A stretch of DNA of 64,000 nucleotides from positions 1,272,501-1,336,500 of the forward strand of contig NZ_CP038255.1 of the NCBI RefSeq assembly GCF_004564135.1. Reading direction: 5' to 3'. Positions 35,951 to 53,583 of this stretch are shown in pieces. Positions within the stretch are counted from its first letter, which is position 1. Every line of letters begins with the position of its first letter. A program made the translations under genes and the position numbers. The DNA comes from Terasakiella sp. SH-1 (GTDB taxonomy: Bacteria > Pseudomonadota > Alphaproteobacteria > Rhodospirillales > Terasakiellaceae). Below the pieces are notes generated by a model, which did no database searches, was not told where the DNA came from, and saw only the letters and a program-made list of their open reading frames with translations.

Positions 35951-37215
35951 CTGGAACGTGCCTCTTACAGCGATGTCGTGCTGGTGGATCGCTTACGTGA
36001 GCAACTACAGATCATCAACCCTGATGTTTCCGAGGACGCATCACGGAAGTCATCAACCGGGTGCTTGATAGTGCCACGCCGTCTCTCGTGGAAGAGAACC
36101 GTCGCCTTCACCTGATGATGACTGATGGCGTTGATATCGAAGACCACACACCCGATGGATCATTGCAATCCAAGAAAGTTTGGCTGCTCGATTTCGAGAC
36201 AACAGATAACAATGATTGGGCTGCTGTTAATCAGTTCACTGTCATTGAAGGACGTAACAATCGTCGCCCTGACATCATTGTGTTTGTGAACGGACTTCCG
36301 CTCGGTGTAATAGAACTCAAAAATCCTGAAGACGAAAACGCTACCATCGAAGGTGCGTTCAACCAGCTTCAGACCTACAAGAAAGAAATTCACGCACTGT
36401 TCCGCACCAATCTGTTCTTGGTAACATCGGACGGCATCCTTGCTCGTGTAGGTTCTCTTACAGCGGACGAGGAACGCTTCATGCCGTGGCGGACCACAGA
36501 TGGTATGACAGTGGCCCCTAAAGGCATTCCAGAGCTTGACACTCTGCTTTCAGGTATCTTCGAACCGCAACGCCTCTTGAATTACCTCAGAGGCTTTGTT
36601 GTGTTTGATAGTGATGGCTCCAAGCTAATCAAAAAGATCGCTGGATACCATCAATTCCATGCTGTGCAAAAAGCAGTTCTCAGCAGCTTGTCTGCAACAG
36701 ATAATGAAGGAAACCGGAAGGCGGGTGTTATCTGGCACACTCAAGGCTCGGGAAAGAGCCTCCTGATGGCATTCTATGCTGGTCGCATCATTGCCCATTC
36801 TGATATGGGAAATCCGACACTGGTCATCATCACTGACCGTAATGATTTGGATGACCAACTCTATAAGACGTTTGCCGGATGTAAAGATTTGATCCGCCAA
36901 ACACCACGTCAGGCCAAAAACCGTGAAGAATTACGTGAACTATTGGCAGTACCATCAGGCGGAGTTGTCTTTACGACTATTCAAAAATTCTCCCCTGAAA
37001 AAGGCGAAGATTTCCCGGTGCTGACAGAGCGATCCAATGTGATCGTCATGGCGGACGAAGCCCATCGTTCTCAATACGGCTTCAAGGCCAAGGTAAAAGA
37101 AGATAGCGGCGAGATAGCTTATGGCTTTGCCAAACATATGCGTGATGCTTTACACTTCAATTCAGGGAATAGTTTCTCTTTTGACGGACACTTGGTGGAA
37201 CAAAATGGCTTTTAA
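35951..37215 (+). pseudogene. hsdR: Decayed type I restriction endonuclease subunit HsdR (middle part)
   Basis: The frame ERASYSDVVLVDRLREQLQI begins at the junction without a start codon. A one-base deletion near 36037 shifts it, and the long frame from 36061 continues as TEVINRVLDSATPSL. Recognisable parts are the nuclease core (RRPDIIVFVNGLPLGVIELK), Walker A in WHTQGSGKSLL, TDRNDLDDQLY and the DEAH box VIVMADEAHRSQYG. After KHMRDAL the expected FTGTP motif is degraded to SFSFDGHLVE and the frame stops. An intact HsdR is about 1000 residues, so both ends are missing. No hsdM or hsdS is present. Confidence 0.88.
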
Positions 37216-40789: not shown

Positions 40790-41044
40790 ATGCAATCATT
40801 CACAGAGTATAGGGCTTCACGTACAGGGAACTCTCCGGCAGCAAGTAAACGCCAAAATCTAAGGGCAGAAGCTCATCGCCTGCATCGTCAGGGGAGTGAC
40901 TTAAATAAAAAATTTTCAAGGGTAAAGTCTATAGAGGATAAGATTGATTTGATGGGTGAAATCCTGATTGTTCAGATGCAGTTGTCTATGTTGACGCTCG
41001 AAGCTTCTTTAAGGACTCCTCAGTCATCATTGGATCAGAAATGA
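40790..41044 (+). CDS. Small hypothetical protein, intact paralogue of 37666
   Basis: The 84-residue product starts MQSFTEYRASRTG with AGGTGA just before the ATG (a GTG six bases earlier is less likely). It is basic at the N-terminus (SKRQNLRAEAHRLHRQG) and ends with two amphipathic helices (KSIEDKIDLMGEILIVQMQL). The family is not known to me. Its C-terminal coding region belongs to an imperfect direct repeat that flanks the parDE genes. Confidence 0.6.
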   Translation: MQSFTEYRASRTGNSPAASKRQNLRAEAHRLHRQGSDLNKKFSRVKSIEDKIDLMGEILIVQMQLSMLTLEASLRTPQSSLDQK

Positions 41045-41101
41045 TGGTGGTGTTGCCCTTTCAACCAAGTGACTCTGTGGGGTCTTTAAAAGGCTTTGTT
41101 G
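40999..41101 (+). repeat. Imperfect direct repeat A, upstream of parDE
   Basis: About 100 bp that aligns, with gaps, to 41688-41791. The best block is CTTTAAGGACTCCTCAGTCA here versus GTTTAAGGATGTCTCAGTCA in copy B, and both copies contain GACTCTGT followed by a CTTTGTT-like block (GCTTTGTT / CCTTGTTT). Copy A covers the end of the small gene at 40790. Confidence 0.6.
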
Positions 41102-41157
41102 GCAACCTTTGTCATCGGTGTTATTCTTTTCAAAGTTCATTTTCAAAGGATACAGTT

Positions 41158-41391
41158 ATGGCAACAATGAATGTGTCATTGCCTGATACCATGCGTGAGT
41201 GGGTTGATGGTCAGGTTAAAAGTGGTGTTTATGCCAATGCCAGTGATTATGTCCGTGATTTAATCCGTAAGGACCAGCGCCAACGTGAGTTGATTAACCT
41301 TGCCTTGATGGAAGGTGAGCAAAGTGGTGTAAGTCAGCGTAAGGTTGGTGATATTGTCAAGGCGGCAAAGGCACAGTTAAGCGGTGCGTGA
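41158..41391 (+). CDS. parD: ParD-type antitoxin
   Basis: The 77-residue product starts MATMNVSLPDTMREWVDGQV with AAAGGA upstream. It has the ribbon-helix-helix N-terminus (MNVSLPDTMREWVDGQVKSG, then YANASDYVRDLIRKDQ) of ParD/CopG antitoxins and a C-terminal toxin-binding tail. It should bind its own promoter and neutralise ParE. It overlaps parE by 8 bp. Confidence 0.92.
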   Translation: MATMNVSLPDTMREWVDGQVKSGVYANASDYVRDLIRKDQRQRELINLALMEGEQSGVSQRKVGDIVKAAKAQLSGA

Positions 41392-41674
41392 TTATCGTCT
41401 TTCGGGTTTAGCTGACCAAGACCTCCATGACATTTACGTTTACACCTATCAGCAGTTTGGTGAAAAACAGGCTGATGTGTATTTATCAGATATGGAAACC
41501 TGTTTTGTGCAGTTGGTTGAGCACCCCAAATTAGGCCGGGATATTTCCTTCACTCGTGCTGGTTATTATCGGTTCGAGCATCAACACTATTCTATTTTTT
41601 ATCAGATTGAGCCTGATGGGATTTTTATCGTGCGGGTTTTGCATAGTACCCGTGATATTGAAGCTGTGTTGTAA
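41384..41674 (+). CDS. parE: ParE-type toxin (RelE/ParE superfamily)
   Basis: The 96-residue product starts at a GTG (GTGCGTGATTAT) overlapping parD. Family features are YRLSGLADQDLHDIYVYTYQ, QLVEHPKLGRDI, and the C-terminal core YRFEHQHYSIFYQIEPDGIF plus VRVLHSTRDIEAVL. ParE proteins inhibit DNA gyrase. The pair is intact and could act as an addiction module that stabilises the surrounding region. Confidence 0.92.
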   Translation: MRDYRLSGLADQDLHDIYVYTYQQFGEKQADVYLSDMETCFVQLVEHPKLGRDISFTRAGYYRFEHQHYSIFYQIEPDGIFIVRVLHSTRDIEAVL

Positions 41675-41954: not shown

Positions 41955-43862
41955 TTACGGTTCCCTGAAGCTCGTTTCAATTGTTCGGATGACCGGATAA
42001 AGCACGTAAGTGATTAAGCGTCGTTTTCCAACAATGATATCAGCATTTAACTGCATACCGGGAATAAGGTGGAAGCCTTCAGGGACTTTTCGTAAGTTAT
42101 TGTGTTTTATCTCTGCACGGGCGCGATAATACGTGCCTTCTTCTCCGTTAATTGAAGTCGTCACTGTATCGGCAGAGATAAACGTAATTTGTGCTTTTAA
42201 GTCACCGTGTTTCTGGAACGGCAGCGCATTCAGTTTGACAGAAACCTCGTTACCGATGGACAGGTTGCTTATATTTTGTGGATCAATGTCCATTTCAACA
42301 TTTAAAGGTACATCAACAGGTACCAGGGTTAAAACAGGTTGCCCTGCGGTAACGATGGAACCGACAAACAAATCCTGAAGTTCCAGAATAATGCCGCTTT
42401 TAGGGGCAATAATCTGAATATTTCCCCGCTTGTGATCCAGCTTGACCAACTCTTCACGCAATGAAGCCCTTTTTTGCGTTGCAGTTGAAAGTTCTTCGTT
42501 AATTTGCTTTTGCCAGCCACTGATGAAAGCTTGTCGGTCTGATTGGGCTGTATCCAAATCGCCTTGAGCTACCTTCAAAGCAATTTCCGAACTTCTCAAT
42601 TCAATTTTTGCCTTATCAAGCTTAAAGGCTTCTTCGACCATTTTCTTTTTAGAGAAAACCTCTTTATCAACAAGCTCCTTGTTAATGTCATAGGTGTGTT
42701 GAGCTTCTTTTAAGGCAACGCGGGCAATTTCAAGTTTGCGCCTTGCTGTGTCCAAAGCGAATTTTGATTTTTCAACACCCAGATCATAGGTAAGAACCTT
42801 GGATTTATACTCCTGCCATCGGTTCTTAAAAATATCCAACTGGATCGGATCTGAAATCTGGGGCGCTATGGAAATATCCAGATTATCCCGTTCTGCCTCC
42901 AAACGTTCGATCTGAGCTAAGACTTGCGAAAACTCCTGTTTTTGGCGTGTATAATCCGCTTCTGTTAATGTCGGGTCAAGCGTTGCTAATACCTGCCCCT
43001 CTTTTACCAATTCGCCAGCCTGAACATGAACAGAACGTACAGATGCCCCTTCACCGGATTGCACCGTTATTTTCGGAACAGTCGTTGCTAGACGACCGTT
43101 TGCCGACATGAAAATATCTATGATCGAAAAACTTGCCCACAAGACACAGGCAACAACAAGGCATGCCATTGCCCAAAATGTATATGAAATGACGGGAGGA
43201 ACACGTCGGCGAGCGATTGTGTCACTGGGCGATTGGAACTCATCAATAATAAAGGCATTATCGATATTTTCCTTTCGCAATTTATCAAAAACAGTTTCTT
43301 TGACCTGCTCTGCTTTATTTTCTTTTACAGGCTGGGCTTCAAACGCGCTGACTTCCAATGCTTTATTGGAGGTCCGAACATATGTTGACAGGCGTTTCAT
43401 AATGGAAACAGCCATATCAGGTGTTTGGGTGATATATTGGCTTAACGCATCTTCATCGACTTCACGCACGACCGTATCACCAACTGCTCTTGCCGCAGCA
43501 CTTCTGGGGGCTGGGTCGATAACCGCCATCTCACCGAATAACCCACCTTCACCAACTTCCGTCAAGGTCGTGTATTTACCATCAGTTATCTTACAAATTT
43601 CCACCGTACCGGAAATCACAACATAACCACAATCGGCTTCATCATTTTCCTGAAAGATAAATTCGCCGGGTGCAAAACGCCTTTCTCTTAGGTCTCTTCC
43701 CGCCTGAGGAGTTTCCGTTTTCTCAGGTTTCTTTGTAGGAGAAGGTGCAGGTTGTACTTTTTTCTCAGGAGCTTTCTTTTTTTCTGCAGATTGTCCCGCC
43801 GGACGTTTCAACTTTCGTTTTTTTAGAATGCTCGGCATTGCATTTTTCTTAATCTCGCTCAT
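41955..43862 (-). CDS. HlyD-family secretion adaptor with N-terminal cyclic-nucleotide-binding domain
   Basis: The 635-residue form starts MSEIKKNAMPSILKK, with the ATG overlapping the upstream ABC gene stop (ATGA). Residues 1-57 are basic and proline-rich. Residues 58-165 form a cNMP-binding domain, including RRFAPGEFIFQENDEADCGY and the phosphate-binding cassette GEMAVIDPAPRSAAARA at 110-126. One membrane helix lies at about 223-250. Then follows the HlyD periplasmic part: lipoyl halves (VRSVHVQAGELVKEGQVLA and later IIAPKSGIILELQDLFVGSI), a long coiled coil and the beta-barrel/C-terminal region. Cytosolic nucleotide binding fused to a membrane-fusion protein is unusual and suggests ligand-gated export. 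Confidence 0.9.
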   Translation of the reverse strand: MSEIKKNAMPSILKKRKLKRPAGQSAEKKKAPEKKVQPAPSPTKKPEKTETPQAGRDLRERRFAPGEFIFQENDEADCGYVVISGTVEICKITDGKYTTLTEVGEGGLFGEMAVIDPAPRSAAARAVGDTVVREVDEDALSQYITQTPDMAVSIMKRLSTYVRTSNKALEVSAFEAQPVKENKAEQVKETVFDKLRKENIDNAFIIDEFQSPSDTIARRRVPPVISYTFWAMACLVVACVLWASFSIIDIFMSANGRLATTVPKITVQSGEGASVRSVHVQAGELVKEGQVLATLDPTLTEADYTRQKQEFSQVLAQIERLEAERDNLDISIAPQISDPIQLDIFKNRWQEYKSKVLTYDLGVEKSKFALDTARRKLEIARVALKEAQHTYDINKELVDKEVFSKKKMVEEAFKLDKAKIELRSSEIALKVAQGDLDTAQSDRQAFISGWQKQINEELSTATQKRASLREELVKLDHKRGNIQIIAPKSGIILELQDLFVGSIVTAGQPVLTLVPVDVPLNVEMDIDPQNISNLSIGNEVSVKLNALPFQKHGDLKAQITFISADTVTTSINGEEGTYYRARAEIKHNNLRKVPEGFHLIPGMQLNADIIVGKRRLITYVLYPVIRTIETSFREP

Positions 43863-46000
43863 GACGTGCCACCTCTTAAAGCACATTCCTTGGACCATAA
43901 GTCGGCATATTCCCCACCCAAATTCATCAGTTCTTCATGGGTACCTTGCTCAAAAAGCTCACCGTTTTTATTAAGAACCAAAATCTGGTCACTGTCTTTG
44001 ATCTGAGAAAGCTGGTGTGTAGCAAAAATGACGGTTCGCCCACTGGAAATTTCATCCATATTCTTTCGGATACTATGTTCATCATCAAGGCTGAGCCCTG
44101 AAAGCGCATCATCAATCATAAGAATCTTAGGATTTCGTATTAATGCCCGAGCCAGTGCTAGCTTCTGGCGTTGACCTGAAGATAAGTTAGCCGCCCCTTC
44201 TTCAAGCTGTGTCTCATAACCATCTGCAAACTCTTTAATCTCATCATGCAGCCCAACCATTTTTGTCGCCCATATGACACGTTCCATTGAAGCCGTTGGC
44301 ATCGGGCGCAGAATGTTTTCACGGATGGTTTCAGCAAAGAAAGTATTTTCTTTGCCGACAAGCGTGACGTTTAACCGTAAATGGCGGGGATCAATGGTGC
44401 GAATTTCGTTTCCTTCAAAAGAAATCGTTCCATCATCGGGGCGCAAAAGCCCTTGCATTAAACGCATCAGAGATGACTTTCCGCAACCAGAAGGGCCAAC
44501 AAGTGCAATACGCTGTCGCGGTTGAATTTCAAAATTCAGGTTTGAAAGAACTTTATGGCCTTCATTATAGGTCAGGGACACATCGTTAAATTCAATACCA
44601 CCACGCAATGTCGGTGAAATGCCCTGCCCTCTGGCTTCCCCTTTTCGGTTAATAACACTGCCTAACCCTTCAATAGCGGAATTAAAGCGATCAAAGTCAA
44701 CAGACATGGTCACAAGTTGAACCAGTGGGCCTGTAACCTTGCCTGCCAACATATTAACACCGATCAAAACACCGGGGGTCAGTTGCTCATCAAAGACCAA
44801 AAGAACGCCAACAAAAATAACGGTCACAGTCATAAGCTGCTGTAACGTCGCACTTACCTGTGCTGACTTTTCCGACATTTTCCCCAGCTCAAGGTTGGCT
44901 AATGTCGAGCTTGATGAATACTCTTCCCAGCTTTTTTTTAGAATCGATTCAAGACTTAAGGTTTTTACTGTTTCAATGCCCGTAATGGAATTCATCAAGA
45001 TGGATTGTTTTTGAGTTTCATGACGTCCAACTTGCTGCATAACGCCTTTTTGCCGTTTGGTCGAAAAGACGTTATTCAGCCCGATCAACAAAGCAAAAAC
45101 GAGAACAACACCAAAGAGCTGAGGACTATAGAGCAGCAAAATCGGCACAAAAACAAATAACCCGGTTGCATCCAAGACAGTCCCAAAAAGCTTACTAACG
45201 AGAAACTGCTTGATTTTGATAACTTGCTGTACGGTTTTGATCAGTGAAGTTGGAGAGTTTTGGTGAAAATAGCCGACAGACTGCCCCATAAGGCTGGAGA
45301 AAGCCTGCACATTAAGCTTAACTTCAACTTTGCTGACGAAAAACAGAATAAGATATTTGCGCAAATAGGCAAAAACACCATTAAACAGCTGTGCAACAAC
45401 AATACCTGCCGCAATAACAATTAGTGTAGAATGTGCCTCATAATTCACAACCTTGTCTAAAACAGTCATAATATAGACAACGGGTAAAAAACCGAAAATA
45501 TGCAGCAGGAAAGAAATCCCCAAAAGTTGGAGCATAATCAGCTTATGATCCACCATTTCCCGGAAAAACCAGCTCAGGCTAAAAGGGTTATCATCATTAA
45601 GGATACCCACCTTGCGTTTAAGTAGGACCATGTCACCGGCCCAAACCTTTTCAAGGGTTTCCTGATTAATATATTCCAGCTTGGCATCAGAAGAAAGCGG
45701 GTCCAAAATCGCAACACAATCCTCGCCGTCACTTGATGGACACCATCTTGCTAAAATTACATATCGATTATTCGTAAACCTGAGAATTACAGGAAAAGCT
45801 GAATCCAGTTTTGAGATTTCATCCCATGAACTGGAAATAGACTTGGCCGTCAACCTATTGGCATTTGCAATCGTCAGCAACGTAGCAATATCTACATCAC
45901 TTTCTTCTTGTAATGCATTTTCATGTAGCAACCGTTCAACACCGAGCTCCACCCCATGTTGTCGTGCCGCCAAGACAAGGCTTCTTATCCCCGAATTCAT
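43859..46000 (-). CDS. Type I secretion ABC transporter (peptidase-like, membrane and ATPase domains)
   Basis: The 713-residue exporter has an N-terminal C39-like domain (1-130) with no catalytic cysteine, so it binds rather than cleaves substrate, as in HlyB. Membrane domain: about 155-430. ATPase domain: about 470-713, with Walker A GPSGCGKSS, signature LSSGQRQKLALARAL and H-loop ATHQLSQI. Walker B reads ILMIDDALSGLS: the catalytic glutamate usual after the aspartate is an aspartate here, and the D-loop is altered. It lies downstream of the giant repeat protein gene and overlaps the adaptor gene, so the three should form a secretion unit. An outer-membrane TolC partner is not in the window. 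Confidence 0.92.
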   Translation of the reverse strand: MNSGIRSLVLAARQHGVELGVERLLHENALQEESDVDIATLLTIANANRLTAKSISSSWDEISKLDSAFPVILRFTNNRYVILARWCPSSDGEDCVAILDPLSSDAKLEYINQETLEKVWAGDMVLLKRKVGILNDDNPFSLSWFFREMVDHKLIMLQLLGISFLLHIFGFLPVVYIMTVLDKVVNYEAHSTLIVIAAGIVVAQLFNGVFAYLRKYLILFFVSKVEVKLNVQAFSSLMGQSVGYFHQNSPTSLIKTVQQVIKIKQFLVSKLFGTVLDATGLFVFVPILLLYSPQLFGVVLVFALLIGLNNVFSTKRQKGVMQQVGRHETQKQSILMNSITGIETVKTLSLESILKKSWEEYSSSSTLANLELGKMSEKSAQVSATLQQLMTVTVIFVGVLLVFDEQLTPGVLIGVNMLAGKVTGPLVQLVTMSVDFDRFNSAIEGLGSVINRKGEARGQGISPTLRGGIEFNDVSLTYNEGHKVLSNLNFEIQPRQRIALVGPSGCGKSSLMRLMQGLLRPDDGTISFEGNEIRTIDPRHLRLNVTLVGKENTFFAETIRENILRPMPTASMERVIWATKMVGLHDEIKEFADGYETQLEEGAANLSSGQRQKLALARALIRNPKILMIDDALSGLSLDDEHSIRKNMDEISSGRTVIFATHQLSQIKDSDQILVLNKNGELFEQGTHEELMNLGGEYADLWSKECALRGGTS

Positions 46001-46029
46001 ACCACCTCACCGCCGATATAAAAATTGAA

Positions 46030-46060
46030 GCAGCATGCCCCGTTATCCAAGGCATGCTGC
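46030..46060 (-). terminator. Intra-operon stem-loop between substrate and transporter genes
   Basis: GCAGCATGCC (46030-46039) and GGCATGCTGC (46051-46060) are perfectly complementary over 10 bp. On the minus strand the hairpin is followed by TTCAATTTTTAT. It lies in the 108-bp gap between the repeat-protein gene and the ABC gene and probably attenuates transcription into the transporter genes. Confidence 0.7.
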
Positions 46061-46108
46061 AACATAACTGATGCTCTATCCTAAACAGATATTTGTTCAG
46101 GTATACGA

Positions 46109-49100
46109 CTAAATGACAGATTCCTGTTCATATTGTTTATCATCATCCTGATTTTCGTCAGTGCTGTTATGAGCAACATCTTCATGCTCCTCATATGTAG
46201 CGCCCTGATTGTCTGCCTGATTTCCAGCATCATCCAGAACATTGGCTTTGTCAGACATGTCCGTATCCATGTTCTCCTGATCGCCATTTTCTTCATTTTG
46301 GGCCAGAACATCATGATCATCCTGTTCTTGGGATGTATCCTCTTCCTGTTTAATACCCAAGTCATCAGAATTATCATTTGCGGCCCATTCTGTGGGCGCT
46401 TCATTGCCTTCTTCATCATCGAAGAAATCATTTTGGCTCAAATAAGTCGGCATTTCCAAACCGTTTTCCCAAGCAAAAGATGGTTCTTCAGGGAATGGAA
46501 TGTCAATGTCATCTTCCAAACTTGCAGGCGGTGCAGGCAATTCAAATGAATCTGGGAATTCAAATCCGGTTTTCGTTGTCAAAGCCTCATCGAATGTGAT
46601 GGACATGGAGCCATCTTCATTCATGCTAAATCCAGCTTCGTCAATATCCTGCACATTGGTTGTCGTGCCATACTCATTGTGTTCCCAAATCTCCACATGA
46701 GGTTCTTCCCCATTTGGCAGATTAGCCACACGAATATGTCCGCCGTGCTCGATATAGGTATCAACCCCATAAGAGCCATCCTGCATCTGCCAGGTAATTG
46801 TGTCACCTTCTTCTGCCGGGTAACTGCTGTAATGACTTTCACGGCCATCACCGCTTACAAAGCTTGCAGATCCATCTGCAAATTTCGTAAAGCTGGCATC
46901 ATCTGGGAAGCGTCCCTCCACATCCGGGTAATTATAGACATAGCTTGGCTCATTACCCGTAGCATTCGGATAAAATTCCTGCGTTGCCCCGTTTGGACAA
47001 TTTGCCGTTTGGTGACCATCTGTATGCCAGGTAAATTCATATCCATCCGGGCGACTCAGAGTCATGGAGCCATCTTCGTTTGTAACCGTCGTGCCGACCC
47101 CTTCTGGGTATTCACCCATGCCATATTCAGATGGGTTTGGATAAATCTCTACACCAAGGTCAACATCATCTAAGTCCCCACCGGTCATGGCAGCGGACAG
47201 AATATCACCGACCGAAGCGCCGAAAATACCTTCTTCAGGCAGATCCATGATGTTGGTTTCCAAATTCCAGCTTGTACCATCAGCCTGATAAAGATCAACT
47301 AAAGAGCCATCTAGCCTACTTATGCCGTCAAAACCAGCATCTTCGGCGACCCCAAAGGCAAAACCACCTGTTGGTACCTGAAATTCAAATGAACCGTCAT
47401 CTTTGGCAATGGCAATATCACCATTGAAGTTAGACTGCTGTGCCCCATCGATATTGTAGAAATATCCACCATCGGGTTGGACTGATGCCCAATCGCCACT
47501 GTCATCATCACTGTAACGATAAACACCATCATCAGACATGCCCATGGATGTCGCTTCAAAGCCATCTTCCATGGAAGTCGTACGATAGCCACCATCCGGG
47601 TCGGATGTGTGGGTTTCTTGGGTGTGTGGATTATAAAGACTGGTTGAGCCATCTTCATAAGTGGTCATTTCAATACCATCGGCATTCACAGCAACCGTCG
47701 TGCCTGATGGATATTGAGTTTCTTTAGAACCGTCATCGTAATTAATCACAACGGCAGTATCGGAAATTTCCATACCGTCAATCTCGGAACCTTCTGCATA
47801 ATCAAGGGAGACGTTACCATATGATGTATCAAGATTGGTTAAGTTATCTGGATCTGGGAACTCATCTTTCCAAGACAAATCAACATTAGAGGCATCCGTT
47901 TTAAAACCGCTGCCATCTTCATAGGTAATCGTAACCGTATCACCATCCTGCGTGTAACTTACAGGCAAGCCCATATCAGTACCCACTTGCTCGTCAAGTG
48001 CAACACCTGGCTGGTATTCAACAAACATAGCCCCATCAGGTGACATGGTTACGTTGGAAACATCGCTGCCCTCTTCGTAACTTGCAATCAGGTTGCCATC
48101 CCAATGAGTTTCCAAAGAAGTCACCCCTTCAGGGAACTGTTCAAGGAAGCTTGTGTCAACCGTTTCTGCGGGGGCTTTAAAGCCACTGCCGTCTGGGTAC
48201 TGCACTGTAATCATGCCGTCTTCGATGCTGAATTCAGCAGGCATGGCATCACCACCCAAGACCATATCAGGGCCAGGAACGAAGTCTTCGCTATATTCGG
48301 TAAACTGATGACCATCTGCCGTCGTGGTCATGCTGAGAACATCGCCACCTTCTTCAAAGGTGATTTTTGTCTCACCCGTATAGCTACTGGTAGAAATTTG
48401 AGAAACCTCACCTGGCAAGCCTTCCGTCCAGCCCATATCAACGTTGTCAGCAGCCGTGTTGTAGCTTGTACCATCGGCATAGGTGATGATTACATTTTCA
48501 CCGTTACCATAAGTGAGATAGCCTGTCGGTGCACCCAAGCCTTCACCAAGTGATGCCCCCAGATCGACCTGAATTTCATGTTCGATCACATGGAAGCCAC
48601 CTTCAGTGCTATATTCAATAGATGTATAAGTAGTGTAACCTTCACCATCTGCATTCACAGTATCAACACGCCCACCATCATATTCGCGCGTATAGCTGCC
48701 ATCACCGGGGCCTTGCTCCACATAGCCATCAACATGTTCGGTGACGTAAGACCCATCTGTTTGCGTGGTCGTGACGTTCCCATCCACATCTTGAGCCTCA
48801 GTGCTACCATCTGTAAATGTGGTTACATAAGAGCCATCGGCCTGTGTAAGAGACACATTGCCATCACTATCACCCGTTTCAACCACACCATCGGGGGTCT
48901 CTTGACGATAAGAACCGTCTTCTTCCGTGATCCGTATAGTCCCCTGACCATCGCCTTCTTCAATGCGACCATCGGCATATTCTGTCTTATAGCTGCCGTT
49001 CTCCTGCGTAACTGTTACGTTACCATCAGCATCACCTGTACGAACAGAACCATCATTTTGATTATGGGTAAAGGCCCCTGTTGAATCACCTCTTTCCGTT

Positions 49101-49741
49101 GAACCATCGGCATGTTCAAACGTGTAATCGCCATTTGCATCAACAGATTTCACAGCCCCATCCGGCATGGTTTGGGTATAAGAACCATCTTCCTGAGTAA
49201 CCTGAACAGTGCCGTCTGCCAATGTGGTTTGTACGGAGCCGTCTTCCAGAACAATCTCATCTGTAACTTCAGGCTCAGGCGGTTCTTGATCCATGGCTTG
49301 AATATCAACATTCTGACTGGCTTGCAGATAGTCCATGGCATCGCTATCACCGGATGCAAGTGTGAGCGGCGGTTCTGCATTGCTCCAAGAAATATTGCCT
49401 TCGCTGTCCATGCTGGTATAACCGCCCTGACCGTCATAAAGCGTCATGCTGCCATCCGCATTGCTCCAGAAACCAGAGCCATCATCATTATAAACACTCA
49501 TGGACCCATCAGCACGCATATACATGCTGGAACCATCCTCAAAACGATGGCTTTCAGAACCATCGGCACTACGAGAATGGTATTCATTGCCTTTAGATAC
49601 ACTGACATAGCCGTCATAGGTGAAGACTGTCGTGCCATCGGCGTAACTTACGTAAAAGAAATCACTATCAGCGCTGTTGTCACCAAAGCTCCAAGATGCG
49701 TTATCTAAGTTGACTGGAAAAGATGGAAAAGAGAAAGCCAT
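46109..49741 (-). CDS. Giant acidic DG-repeat protein, likely type I secretion substrate
   Basis: The 1210-residue protein has no N-terminal signal peptide. Residues about 34-120 and 166-372 are built of 9-residue units with the pattern x-(D/N)-G followed by six residues (for example EDGSYTQTM, PDGVVETGD). The second block has 23 consecutive units and a 27-residue superperiod. Residues 404-672 contain three copies of a ~91-residue unit (ITYADG, then NVD, FP and YEEGSDV landmarks). Residues 700-1060 are further DG-rich, and the last 140 residues are extremely acidic. No RTX GGxGxDxxx repeats are seen. GGGAG precedes the start. Its position before transporter genes suggests a secreted surface or matrix protein. 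Confidence 0.85.
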   Translation of the reverse strand: MAFSFPSFPVNLDNASWSFGDNSADSDFFYVSYADGTTVFTYDGYVSVSKGNEYHSRSADGSESHRFEDGSSMYMRADGSMSVYNDDGSGFWSNADGSMTLYDGQGGYTSMDSEGNISWSNAEPPLTLASGDSDAMDYLQASQNVDIQAMDQEPPEPEVTDEIVLEDGSVQTTLADGTVQVTQEDGSYTQTMPDGAVKSVDANGDYTFEHADGSTERGDSTGAFTHNQNDGSVRTGDADGNVTVTQENGSYKTEYADGRIEEGDGQGTIRITEEDGSYRQETPDGVVETGDSDGNVSLTQADGSYVTTFTDGSTEAQDVDGNVTTTQTDGSYVTEHVDGYVEQGPGDGSYTREYDGGRVDTVNADGEGYTTYTSIEYSTEGGFHVIEHEIQVDLGASLGEGLGAPTGYLTYGNGENVIITYADGTSYNTAADNVDMGWTEGLPGEVSQISTSSYTGETKITFEEGGDVLSMTTTADGHQFTEYSEDFVPGPDMVLGGDAMPAEFSIEDGMITVQYPDGSGFKAPAETVDTSFLEQFPEGVTSLETHWDGNLIASYEEGSDVSNVTMSPDGAMFVEYQPGVALDEQVGTDMGLPVSYTQDGDTVTITYEDGSGFKTDASNVDLSWKDEFPDPDNLTNLDTSYGNVSLDYAEGSEIDGMEISDTAVVINYDDGSKETQYPSGTTVAVNADGIEMTTYEDGSTSLYNPHTQETHTSDPDGGYRTTSMEDGFEATSMGMSDDGVYRYSDDDSGDWASVQPDGGYFYNIDGAQQSNFNGDIAIAKDDGSFEFQVPTGGFAFGVAEDAGFDGISRLDGSLVDLYQADGTSWNLETNIMDLPEEGIFGASVGDILSAAMTGGDLDDVDLGVEIYPNPSEYGMGEYPEGVGTTVTNEDGSMTLSRPDGYEFTWHTDGHQTANCPNGATQEFYPNATGNEPSYVYNYPDVEGRFPDDASFTKFADGSASFVSGDGRESHYSSYPAEEGDTITWQMQDGSYGVDTYIEHGGHIRVANLPNGEEPHVEIWEHNEYGTTTNVQDIDEAGFSMNEDGSMSITFDEALTTKTGFEFPDSFELPAPPASLEDDIDIPFPEEPSFAWENGLEMPTYLSQNDFFDDEEGNEAPTEWAANDNSDDLGIKQEEDTSQEQDDHDVLAQNEENGDQENMDTDMSDKANVLDDAGNQADNQGATYEEHEDVAHNSTDENQDDDKQYEQESVI
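47726..48532 (-). repeat. Three ~91-residue tandem units inside the giant protein
   Basis: Units begin near residues 404, 501 and 592. Each has a (V/I)TxxYxDGxxF/Y strand, an NVD or TVD motif, an EFP-like turn, (Y/F)(E/A)EGS(D/E), and a closing DGxxFxEY pattern. The third copy is less complete. Confidence 0.7.
48626..49246 (-). repeat. 23 tandem 9-residue DG units (27-bp period) inside the giant protein
   Basis: Residues 166-372 divide without gaps into 9-residue units starting x-D-G (or N-G). Every third unit is similar (xDGNVTxTQ, xDGSYxTEx, xDGxxExGD), giving an 81-bp higher-order period. The pattern is like the PDGT 'G-box' repeats of the TCP10/CPAP C-terminal domain, which form a free-standing beta-sheet. 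Confidence 0.8.
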
Positions 49742-49810
49742 TTATCATGCTCCCAAAAAATATTGTTGCCCTCTAAAAGGACGGAATTTGATGCTTAAAA
49801 GTGTGGATAG

Positions 49811-50200
49811 TTATGCGCTTGCTTTTTTAACCGGGATTTCATCGCCCTTAAGGGAGGCGAGCATATGTTCCGCAACAGCCATTCGCTGACTAGCGTTTGT
49901 AAGTTGGTCCTGTAACGCTAACATTGATTGCTTGGCTTCATCATATTCCTGCTGGGCTTTTAAAGTGATCTCATCCACTTCTTTTTGGCGCGCCTGGCGC
50001 TTTCTCAATTCTTCTAAAGCATGCTCCTGAACAGTAAGGTGTTCCTGCATACCTTCTTCAAAACGCGCCCGTCGGCGCTTGGCTTCCTCCGCAATTTTTT
50101 GCGGATCGGAATTGGTTGTCGAATTGCTCTTTGTATGTGCTGCTTGAACAGCCTTCTGCATTACATCGAGCTGAGATTTAATTCTTTCATTCAAAGCCAT
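49811..50200 (-). CDS. Small coiled-coil protein upstream of the secretion genes
   Basis: The 129-residue form starts MALNERIKSQLDVMQKAVQA, with AGGAG 8 bp before the ATG; the longer frame to 50290 is not supported. It is almost wholly helical, with a heptad-rich stretch from about residue 35 to 115 (EEAKRRRARFEEGMQEHLTV, then ITLKAQQEYDEAKQSML), and is highly charged. It has no signal peptide. It lies 69 bp before the giant repeat protein gene on the same strand, so it is probably the first gene of the cassette. A cytosolic chaperone or adaptor role for the substrate is a guess from position. Confidence 0.75.
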   Translation of the reverse strand: MALNERIKSQLDVMQKAVQAAHTKSNSTTNSDPQKIAEEAKRRRARFEEGMQEHLTVQEHALEELRKRQARQKEVDEITLKAQQEYDEAKQSMLALQDQLTNASQRMAVAEHMLASLKGDEIPVKKASA

Positions 50201-50313: not shown

Positions 50314-50634
50314 ATGGTTACGACAGGCTATTTTATCTCGGAAAGCTCTGTTTATCGGTTACTCAAAAGCCATGACCTGATCACCAGTCCAGCTTACGTG
50401 GTCATCAAAGCAGCCAATGAGTTCAGGGATAAGACAACAGCACCAAATCAAATGTGGCAGACAGATTTTACCTACTTCAAGATCATTGGCTGGGGTTGGT
50501 ATTATCTATCGACAATCCTGGATGACTATTCGCGCTATATCATCGCCTGGAAGCTATGTACGTCAATGAAAGTAGGTGACGTGAAAGATACGCTGGATCT
50601 TGCCCTGCAAGCTTCCGGCTATGATCAGGTGTGA
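50314..50634 (+). pseudogene. Fragment of an IS3-family transposase (orfB, integrase core)
   Basis: The 106-codon frame covers the middle of an IS3-type OrfB: ISESSVYRLLKSHDLI, then PNQMWQTDFTYFKIIGWGWY (first catalytic Asp) and STILDDYSRYIIAWKL. It ends at ASGYDQV before the second catalytic Asp and Glu. A stop codon lies directly before the first methionine, so the 5' part is also lost. No inverted repeats are visible. It is debris from an old insertion. Confidence 0.85.
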
Positions 50635-51822: not shown

Positions 51823-51841
51823 TATGGTCGGGACAGCGGGA
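51823..51841. repeat. Attachment-site copy (duplicate of the tRNA-Pro 3' end)
   Basis: TATGGTCGGGACAGCGGGA is identical to 53505-53523, which covers the tRNA-Pro 3' end and CCA. Such duplications mark the distal boundary of elements that integrate into tRNA genes. Confidence 0.88.
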
Positions 51842-51977
51842 CTACAACCAAAATCCAAAAAGAAGCTTTAATTCAATAGCTTATCCACCTTCGATGTAAG
51901 TATGGAAGGGGTGTAATTCATACGTACACTTACATCGGTCAGAAAGCAAGCCCTTTCCCCTACCCTCAAAATGGTCG

Positions 51978-53249
51978 TTACTTGTTGCTGCAGATCACAT
52001 CAAGATCAATCCCAATGGTCTGCTTCAAATAAGAAGAGGCAGAGCCGAGAACTGCTGCTTGATCTCTTGTAAGCTTCTTCTTCGAGATTCCCGGCTGTAC
52101 AACAGAAATCCCAATACGGACTTCCTTGAAGCGAGAGCTTCTTTCAATCCCGATCAGCCTAGTTCCGTTTCCATGAAGGTAACTGTCTCGTCCAGTTTTA
52201 TGTCGTCCGTTTCTTGTCACCATATGGGAAATCAACTTTTTAAATTGACCAGACCACCTTGCTGACCTCACAGCTTGAGAAGAGACTTCGACAGTGTCAC
52301 CAACTCGTTCTCCACCTTCCTTGCCACCAGAGTACTTGCAATGAAGCAAACGCAATTGAATGCAATCGTCTTCTTCCTTTATGCAAATCAAATCAGCTGC
52401 TTCATTCGCACCGTCATCATCAAACACAATCTCGTACCCACCAGCAATGTACTGTTGTGCCGTATGCCATTGAACTGAGTCTTTTCGTTCAACGCCCTTT
52501 TTCCAGATAGACTCTTTCTTCACGTCAACACCTGCCCAATTCCATTCTTCTAGACGTTCCGGCTGAATGTCTTCAATCTCTGAACTTTCTGTCTTTAGAA
52601 GGATATTTCCATCTAATTCTGATAGATCAAGGAATCTCACAAGTGGTGGATAGTCTTTAAAGAACTCGTCTACCCGTCTTTCTGTGTTGCCTATAGTTAC
52701 CTTGAGTTCCTTCCCTGAGAACTGCGTCAGGGTGTAACCATCTTCCCCTTTTGCGGTTAGTCTGAACTTTCCAAGGGCGTTATCGTGTTCATCTTCATAG
52801 ATAGCGAACTCAATGGTAGCCGCACTATGATCGACAGATAAGCATCTCAGATCAACTGAGAACCAATCAAACTCATTTTCCCCAACTGATAAGATAATCC
52901 TCTCTTCTGATGTCCGAAGTAGCTCAGAAGGCCATTCAATATTCAACACGCCAATGTCAGGCAAGACATCAACATATTCTGGTATCATTACGTTCTTGAT
53001 TATTTGGCTGGTATCAATCGTATCATCGATCAGCTTCTTACCAACGTTTTCGGCCCATTTGATGAAATCAGGAAGTGTACCTGCTGCCTTTGACCACACG
53101 CGCCCCTTCCTTGAACATCCGATGGTCATTTGACTTCCTTGTTCCCAGCCATAGCCATCGATGTTGGATTTCCTAGAACCGACCTTCTCTGTTTCACTCA
53201 ACGCATCTCTGACCTGCGCCCCTGTGTACATTGCGTACCTCGCGTCCAA
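51978..53249 (-). pseudogene. Chimeric ORF: integrase scrap fused to the C-terminus of a large, possibly helicase-type protein
   Basis: The frame of 423 codons begins at a TTG inside the integrase remnant; its first ~25 codons (DARYAMYTGAQVRDALSETE) continue the integrase after a frameshift. From GYGWEQGSQMTIGCSRKGRV on, it looks like the C-terminal half of a large protein. I associate this type with long DEAD/DEAH-box helicase proteins of defence loci, but from memory and with low certainty. Domain landmarks: SGGYEIVFDDDGANEAADL-like nuclease/phospholipase-type segment with HCKYSGG, and a C-terminal helical end SASSYLKQTIGIDLDVIC. No helicase motifs remain, so an internal deletion probably joined the two genes. 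Confidence 0.55.
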
Positions 53250-53430
53250 TAGCCAGAAGGACTTTGTTCTTACGAGAATTGGCGACTTTGAAGTCTTTAG
53301 TGTTCAGGCCACGGACAATTTCTCGCTTACCCACAAGTTTACGGAATTCTTGGGGGACGTAAAAGACTACAGCCCAGCCACCGCCGGGTCGTTGTCTCAA
53401 GTTCTTTTTGGTGCTCATTGTATCGCTCAT
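53194..53430 (-). pseudogene. N-terminal remnant of a tyrosine integrase (DUF6538-type)
   Basis: The short frame MSDTMSTKKNLRQRPGGGWA, then VVFYVPQEFRKLVGKREIVR and LNTKDFKVANSRKNKVLLAI matches the N-terminal arm domain of phage-type integrases that begin 'RxxGxWxxxxxVPxxxRxxxGKxEIxxSLxT'. The frame shifts at about 53249 and the core-binding and catalytic domains are absent. It lies immediately inside the element next to tRNA-Pro, transcribed away from the tRNA, the usual location of an island integrase. Confidence 0.75.
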
Positions 53431-53431
53431 A

Positions 53432-53468
53432 GATGTAAGTATATACATACATCCCCGATACTTACAAG
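53432..53468. promoter_or_regulatory. Candidate integrase/excisionase arm sites
   Basis: GATGTAAGTAT (53432-53442) and its near inverse ATACTTACAAG (53458-53468) lie beside the proximal att. Similar GATGTAAGT sites in both orientations lie beside the distal att (51893-51901, 51928-51936). Presence at both ends suggests recombinase or accessory-factor binding. Confidence 0.45.
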
Positions 53469-53504: not shown

Positions 53505-53523
53505 TATGGTCGGGACAGCGGGA
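53505..53523. repeat. Attachment site in tRNA-Pro 3' end
   Basis: Same 19 bp as 51823-51841. It contains the CCA end and the acceptor stem 3' strand of tRNA-Pro, so the tRNA remains functional after integration. Confidence 0.88.
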
Positions 53524-53583
53524 TTCGAACCCACGACCCCTACACCCCCAGTGTAGTGCGCTACCAGACTGCGCTATGTCCCG
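53507..53583 (-). tRNA. tRNA-Pro (GGG)
   Basis: The 77-nt gene folds as a cloverleaf: acceptor CGGGACA pairs with TGTCCCG, followed by A and an encoded CCA. The D-arm is GCGCAGTCTGGTAGCGC, the anticodon arm is CTACA-CTGGGGG-TGTAG with anticodon GGG at 53547-53549, and the T-arm carries GGTTCGAATCC. Its 3' end is duplicated at 51823-51841, so it served as an integration site. It lies just downstream of the merR gene, a usual location in alphaproteobacteria. Confidence 0.95.

Follow-up and report, generated by a model that had tools for sequence, protein, structure and literature searches.

A candidate type I secretion unit in Terasakiella sp. SH-1 whose adaptor bears a putative nucleotide sensor and whose proposed cargo is an aspartate-glycine repeat protein

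Background

Type I exporters are viewed as ATP-driven machines that are regulated mainly at the level of transcription. Among them, the HlyB/HlyD exporter of alpha-haemolysin combines an ATP-binding cassette (ABC) protein bearing a C39-like domain with an HlyD adaptor, and in the hly operon a terminator lies ahead of the transporter genes. We analysed a locus of comparable layout in Terasakiella sp. SH-1, a member of a marine genus whose genome forms one contig of 3.83 Mb; the window is the whole stretch of 64,000 nucleotides analysed (contig NZ_CP038255.1, positions 1,272,501 to 1,336,500). The locus shares with HlyB/HlyD the C39-like ABC protein, the HlyD-type adaptor and a terminator-like hairpin before the transporter genes. 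It differs in that the adaptor carries a cyclic nucleoside monophosphate (cNMP)-binding domain, the ATPase motifs of the ABC protein are altered, and the putative cargo, a protein with many Asp-Gly (DG) dipeptides that we call the DG protein, is poor in lysine and arginine and has no RTX match.

A C39-type exporter that incorporates a cNMP-fold domain is also known from Nostoc: HetC, whose function, in the excerpted text of the HetC report (PMC10986499), requires this domain. In that excerpt the ABC protein itself carries the domain, its peptidase is active and an adaptor gene is lacking nearby. In the window the adaptor bears the cNMP domain and the catalytic Cys is missing from the C39-like domain, which sets the locus apart from peptidase-containing ABC transporters of the HetC type. 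The NCBIfam model TIGR03896 (cyc_nuc_ocin), which by its name ties a cNMP-type protein to bacteriocin-type transport, was matched over the cNMP domain alone, with 32.9 bits against a cut-off of 161. The sheets of the CPAP/SAS-4 G-box (TCP10) and of MORN repeats offer a comparison for the repeats of the DG protein, from which the predicted array differs in being bacterial, in having more than 20 strands and in lying by an exporter, with no centriole context. A search of the open-licence literature in PubMed Central returned nothing that combines a cNMP domain, HlyD and type I secretion, which may have been printed elsewhere.

Results and discussion

On the minus strand of the window a coiled-coil-like protein gene is followed by the genes for the DG protein, the C39-like ABC exporter and the cNMP-HlyD adaptor (Table 1). 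This locus is best read as a variant of type I secretion in which the adaptor bears a nucleotide sensor and the cargo is unusual, and we give a probability of roughly 0.6 to the proposal that the DG protein, the ABC exporter and the adaptor form such a unit, with cargo, messenger gating and beta-sheet as set out below. An earlier note, made from the letters of this DNA, had described four minus-strand genes in this order, an ATGA overlap of the last two, a hairpin before the transporter genes and an accessory-region setting. Open reading frames (ORFs) and domain matches bear out all four genes and their order; the overlap with the ABC stop lies at 43859-43862, with the ATG at 43862 as the likely adaptor start; and the hairpin and the setting were also found, as described further on. 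The ABC gene thus adjoins a gene of the HlyD family, the pairing typical of type I secretion.

The locus was compared with others, numbered L, in which a cNMP domain is fused to an HlyD-type adaptor (fusion loci); genomes are numbered G. The best 80 of 503 relatives in a scan of named genomes, with records of SAR116, Magnetococcales and Rhodospirillales bacteria, supplied 20 full-length fusions (L018-L037); the other 60 were left out, most matching the cNMP domain alone, and L038, L040, L041 and L049 match both halves weakly. Another search covered 297 genomes of the order; matches beginning in the cNMP part were counted as fusions there, and 20 regions were fetched, six of which proved duplicates. 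Together with other regions fetched, and with these duplicates removed, 38 distinct fusion loci were obtained. Controls were loci of adaptors without a cNMP domain, of which 40 were fetched and 35 used for counting neighbours; the count omits L148, L150 and L151, with weak cNMP scores, and L154 and L166 (from G290 and G160), which qualify as fusions too but came in with the control fetch. In wider samples, and at E no higher than 1e-120, fusions occur in 9/385 genomes of the class and 14/398 of the phylum, this genome being in both sets.

The window adaptor matches Pfam cNMP_binding (5.8e-21) and HlyD_3 (2.7e-16) and exceeds the cut-off of the NCBIfam model type_I_hlyD (2e-87). The phosphate-binding cassette of cNMP domains (GE...R) is present, its FGE and phosphate-binding Arg being kept in 38/38 fusion adaptors, and the ABC gene directly precedes the adaptor gene in every one of these loci. 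A second full-length adaptor copy, 45% identical, exists in this genome, and full-length adaptors were also found in G001, G029 and G020. A same-strand cyclase gene lies directly after the adaptor gene in 3/38 loci (L020, L021, L025) and in 2/19 new loci described below (L226, L227), in each case with stand-alone cNMP proteins behind it. The conserved motif upholds the cNMP-type binding domain that the earlier note had placed on the adaptor. The L021 cyclase was recognized by Pfam (CHASE2 and Guanylate_cyc) and the other adaptor-adjacent ones by similarity to it. In L034 and L036 a cyclase lies upstream of the cargo-position gene, while the 40 control-fetch loci have cyclases in three, only on the opposite strand and 1.6-2.8 kb away.

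Other genes also recur beside the adaptor. A TolC-type gene lies next to the cassette in L021 (Pfam OEP), L025, L226 and L227. A DUF1538-type membrane protein with a P-II-like neighbour was found by similarity to L021 and L028 in 5/38 fusion loci (L020, L021, L025, L028, L036) and in 0/40 control-fetch loci; L226 has the pair too and L227 has the DUF1538 type, and P-II itself was matched by Pfam beside the DUF1538 protein in L028 and L036. We had considered a bicarbonate transporter for the membrane protein of L021, L028 and L036, a reading rejected on the Pfam match to DUF1538. Near the G001 cassette (L015, 3249-5870) there is an 873-aa protein with metallo-beta-lactamase, cNMP-binding and hemerythrin domains. 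Two-ABC type I exporters of this genome and of G001 have a stand-alone 126-aa cNMP protein beside them (L169, 6291-6671, minus strand; L179, 9092-9472, plus strand), and similar pairs at similar spacing occur in G002-G005.

The window ABC protein has Peptidase_C39, ABC_membrane and ABC_tran matches, all over the Pfam cut-offs; that to Peptidase_C39 has 6.7e-6 and 26.4 bits (cut-off 22), and the N-terminal stretch RSLVLAARQHGVELGV is free of Cys, leaving a C39-like domain without the catalytic residue. Its best NCBIfam match is the HlyB model TIGR01846, yet at 503 bits this falls below the cut-off of 725. In the ATPase motifs the Q-loop Gln is replaced by Lys, the signature reads LSSGQ, Asp replaces Glu after Walker B and the H-loop His is kept.

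Similar departures are common among its relatives. We aligned the ABC proteins of the 38 fusion loci with 39 control ABCs, which still include L148, L150, L151, L154 and L166 and do not include L186. The Q-loop Gln is lost in 29/38 fusion loci and in 0/38 controls (L154, itself a fusion, being set aside), and four or more letters of the signature LSGGQ are kept in 7/38 against 30/39. The catalytic Glu is present in 30/38 against 37/39 and the H-loop His in 25/38 against 34/39. Altogether at least one of the four motifs is lost in 33/38 fusion loci compared with 9/39 controls, the Walker A Lys being retained in every ABC compared. A quick tree built from 74 ABCs has a group of 33 with support 100, consisting of the 32 degenerate fusion ABCs of sufficient length (including that of the window) and L154, a long branch of unsure placement; L037 and L129 were too short to enter. 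The canonical fusion ABCs L035, L145, L146, L147 and L166 fall outside this group.

Genes in the position of a cargo were sought within ~8 kb of the pair as ORFs that reach 90 aa, contain no more than 1% Lys+Arg and have 8% Asp+Glu or more. Such an ORF is present in 20/38 fusion loci and 1/35 control loci, and 17 of these 20 ORFs share the strand of the ABC gene and lie upstream of it; those of L016 and L018 lie downstream and that of L019 on the opposite strand. L140, L141 and L144 have a divergent cNMP-type gene between this ORF and the ABC gene, Crp-like in L140. The remaining 18 loci, the window among them, have no ORF of at most 1% Lys+Arg, seven of these having less than 350 nt upstream of the ABC gene; the cargo-position ORF of L034 has 1.6%. 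The proteins show several repeat types (PPPEGDM-type with short helical repeats; GD-V/M-T/S-G; MGGMTADHM), and that of L018, cut by the contig end, is a hexapeptide left-handed beta-helix (Pfam Hexapep 1.6e-35). An acidic stretch with a hydrophobic end closes the C-terminus in 18/20 cargo-position genes compared with 5/351 other genes. Of the fusions fetched among the controls, L154 has both a degenerate ABC and a neighbour free of Lys and Arg, and L166 has neither. In addition, a 2372-aa open ORF with 0.5% Lys+Arg (L173, 8886-16001) adjoins a two-ABC exporter without a cNMP domain, because of which cargo free of these residues may extend beyond the cNMP clade.

A prediction was fixed before further loci were fetched: a degenerate ABC and a neighbour free of Lys and Arg were expected for strong new matches, and neither for weak ones. 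The strong matches listed were 14, one of which (L217) duplicates L019; seven loci were predicted to be canonical, of which G833 was left out and six were fetched. The ABC-adaptor pair is present in 19/19 new loci. An ORF free of Lys and Arg was found in 10/12 loci with a degenerate ABC, seven upstream on the same strand and three on the opposite strand (L221, L222, L223), the two without it being L218 and L228, in the latter of which only 2 nt precede the ABC gene. It was found in 0/7 canonical loci, although L231 among them has less than 200 nt of flank and is uninformative on neighbours. All six fetched loci predicted to be canonical were so, and the strong match G407/L230 turned out canonical, contrary to prediction. 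Fisher's test for the association gives 0.0007, ignoring kinship (several loci share a genus, four being from g478 and two from g169). That an eroded ATP engine appears to go with neighbours free of Lys and Arg, in two samples with controls, is the more surprising part of the comparison.

Between the cargo-position and transporter genes of the window lies a hairpin of 13 pairs followed by a T-rich tail, the longest stem in a 9.1-kb scan that gave 14 terminator-like sites against 8.5 in shuffles. The 108-nt intergenic stretch that holds it folds at -38.8 kcal/mol (z -3.85), and the corresponding gap is 105-112 nt in L014, L015 and L128. A hairpin between these genes was found in 13 of the 15 loci tested and was matched by at most 2/40 shuffles; L134 and L137 have identical ABC proteins, so one was dropped from the set.

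The DG protein itself occupies the cargo position of the relatives. It holds 56 DG dipeptides, whereas 500 shuffles gave a mean of 16.7 (sd 3.5, largest 32), and a nine-residue period runs across residues 131-375. In the 23 units of the array Gly stands at one position in 23/23 and is preceded by Asp in 18/23. Composition is strongly acidic (21% Asp+Glu, 2.6% Lys+Arg); the highest charge of any 20-residue stretch is 0, never positive, and the tail ends ...EQESVI. In the excerpt of a study of a bacterial ABC exporter (PMC9223453), stretches above +2 blocked secretion, for which its authors blame the membrane potential. Pfam gives Tcp10_C (1.1e-13), the PF07202 (TCP10/G-box) profile scoring 51 bits over the whole protein against a cut-off of 36 and 26.4 bits, below that cut-off, for the single stretch seen in the genome search. 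The predicted model of the array is a single-layer beta-sheet whose nearest structure is the CPAP G-box. PF07202 occurs in 1/385 genomes of the class and the DG protein in 1/150 genomes of the order (E up to 1e-6), this genome only in both cases. No full-length homologue was found; a plasmid search gave 10 Streptomyces records with local DG-repeat similarity over at most 24% of the query, seven annotated as AAWKG family. By position, charge and analogy we infer that the DG protein is the cargo of the adjoining exporter. The earlier note had taken it for the substrate, which the relatives' cargo position, the hairpin, the 108-nt gap and the charge profile support indirectly.

No support was found for the proposal that all four genes form one system, with the coiled-coil-like protein as a helper. 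The coiled-coil character of this 129-aa protein was judged by eye from its sequence, and no Pfam family is matched over the cut-off. In the gene co-occurrence check it was found in 1/100 relatives, this genome, and is absent from the 99 others; as the DG gene was likewise seen in this genome only among the 150 of the order, a conserved unit of four genes was rejected.

Several observations weigh against the secretion unit as proposed. The DG protein is not free of Lys and Arg (2.6%), fails the strict tail rule through one Lys and is the sole cargo of its kind seen; the rule, moreover, was devised after the tails had been seen, and its part on Lys and Arg is trivially met by proteins free of them. 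The window ABC departs from the norm in 2/4 ATPase motifs, so transport by it is not certain. Within 25 kb around the cassette, similarity to a few query proteins revealed neither a cyclase nor a TolC gene. Cyclases anywhere within ~8 kb hardly differ between fusion (7/38) and control loci (3/35), and an enrichment counted in this loose way was rejected as unconvincing, only directly adjacent same-strand cyclases being different. Finally, the ligand of the cNMP-type domain may not be cyclic, because in the excerpt of the HetC report (PMC10986499) ppGpp bound best and thermal protection by cyclic AMP was not significant.

An ordinary constitutive type I system, in which the cNMP fold is structural, for instance in contact with the ABC protein, and binds no regulator, would fit the lack of a linked cyclase at most loci and the weakly scoring cNMP-like N-termini of L148, L150 and L151, which adjoin canonical ABCs. 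We consider it unlikely in view of the phosphate-binding motif kept throughout the fusion adaptors and the five loci that have a cyclase immediately after the adaptor and, next to it, stand-alone cNMP proteins. A little less likely still is that the exporter, alone or as a heterodimer with another ABC, moves a different substrate and the DG gene is a chance neighbour in a variable region by tRNA-Pro. The region is indeed variable, and among the samples the DG and coiled-coil genes occur only here; against chance stand the relatives' cargo position shared by the DG gene, the hairpin, and its low Lys+Arg content and charge profile. A heterodimer recalls the five inspected control loci with a degenerate signature, where two ABC-like genes stand in tandem (judged by sequence and position and, for this genome, by matches). 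Within 3 kb, 0/57 fusion loci have a further same-strand ABC ORF of exporter size; in L020, L021 and L025 such an ORF, with its own HlyD, lies 6.5-7 kb off on the opposite strand. Two relatives with 1.4-Mb genomes (92-93% complete) gave only three matches each, just one of C39-like length, which speaks against a partner. Of four relatives outside the genus that were checked, a further long ABC occurs in G646, where it carries FSGGQ and the flank fetched shows no adaptor, and in G552, where it adjoins its own adaptor, so degenerate fusion ABCs may have a partner elsewhere in the genome.

RTX repeats have a double-Gly pattern. The array resembles them in its period of nine and its wealth of Gly and Asp, and could be read as a variant calcium-binding beta-roll sent out by a standard RTX exporter; its units, with a single Gly position and Asp before it, do not follow the double-Gly pattern. 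No HemolysinCabind or other RTX family appears among the Pfam matches of the DG protein up to E 1, where Tcp10_C is found instead, and the predicted model lies nearest the CPAP G-box. C39-like ABCs are commonly paired with RTX cargo in the excerpted text of PMC8277102, but Pfam and predicted fold led us to reject the RTX reading, which we hold to be very improbable.

Under the preferred reading of a type I secretion variant with a sensor adaptor, the DG protein would be made in excess because the terminator would halt much transcription before the transporter genes. The C39-like domain would recognize it through its acidic, hydrophobic-ended C-terminus, and it would leave in unfolded form by way of a TolC-type pore whose gene lies elsewhere. 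Whether or how fast export runs would be set by a nucleotide messenger, cyclic or other, on the cytoplasmic N-terminus of the adaptor. Outside the cell the DG arrays would fold into long single-layer beta-sheet ribbons, probably surface or matrix material.

A bolder and rather doubtful extension is that the fusion loci represent a clade of messenger-gated exporters relying more on membrane potential than on ATP, with the ABC protein as a gate opened by the adaptor-bound nucleotide. Cargoes would have shed Lys and Arg so that the inside-negative potential pulls them outward, and the Q-loop, signature, catalytic Glu or H-loop would have degraded although the same operon has no partner ABC gene. 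The window DG protein would then be a G-box-like fibre cargo acquired by a deep branch of the clade.

Genomic setting

The genus relative G002 agrees base for base over 7,001 bases with the Terasakiella pusilla DSM 6293 locus L064, which places the host in Terasakiella (Rhodospirillales). A tRNA-Pro gene lies at 53507-53583, ~3 kb from the cassette. The right flank of the cassette can be aligned in three genus relatives (77-81% over 0.9-1.15 kb), and for window positions ~25.0-51.7 kb no matching DNA was found in the stretches of 8.6-15.5 kb fetched from them. A near-copy (89%) of the 3' end of the tRNA gene, 51823-51849 versus 53505-53531, bounds a separate 1.7-kb insert, which encodes a 423-aa protein matched by no Pfam family and, at 53194-53448, a fragment of DUF6538; in two genus relatives the DNA after the tRNA gene resumes to the left of this copy. 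From the flank alignments and the position of the tRNA copy, the cassette is placed in a variable region and outside the small insert.

Just upstream of the coiled-coil gene, on the opposite strand, a short ORF (50314-50634) matches the transposase-type core family Pfam rve (1.2e-17) over profile positions 2-64 of 102. A ParD/ParE toxin-antitoxin pair (41041-41674) adjoins the adaptor gene, and a 384-aa ORF at 36061-37215 with HSDR_N and a partial SWI2/SNF2 domain resembles a shortened R subunit of a type I restriction system.

Table 1. Positions in the window of the cassette genes and their features.
Feature	Position	Strand	Details
HlyD-type adaptor, N-terminal cNMP-binding domain	41955..43862	-	635 aa from ATGA start; listed ORF start 43898 (647 aa)
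cNMP-binding domain, FGEM...PRSAA motif	43428..43685	-	residues 72-157 of the 647-aa adaptor ORF
C39-like-domain ABC exporter, 713 aa	43859..46000	-	Pfam, NCBIfam, aligned ATPase motifs
Terminator-like hairpin between putative cargo gene and transporter genes	46030..46060	-	folding and stem scan
DG-repeat protein, 1210 aa, putative cargo	46109..49741	-	ORF, composition, position
Nine-residue DG array, 23 units, residues 166-372	48626..49246	-	predicted single-layer beta-sheet, CPAP G-box-like
Coiled-coil-like protein, 129 aa, ATG at 50200	49811..50200	-	ORF; absent from 99 other relatives

Conclusions

A clade that combines a sensor domain on the adaptor, eroded ATPase motifs and cargo-position neighbours often stripped of nearly all Lys and Arg would make testable whether a second messenger switches protein export at the machine itself, and how far membrane potential can substitute for ATP. 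A secreted G-box-like sheet would also offer single-layer beta-sheet material from a new source.
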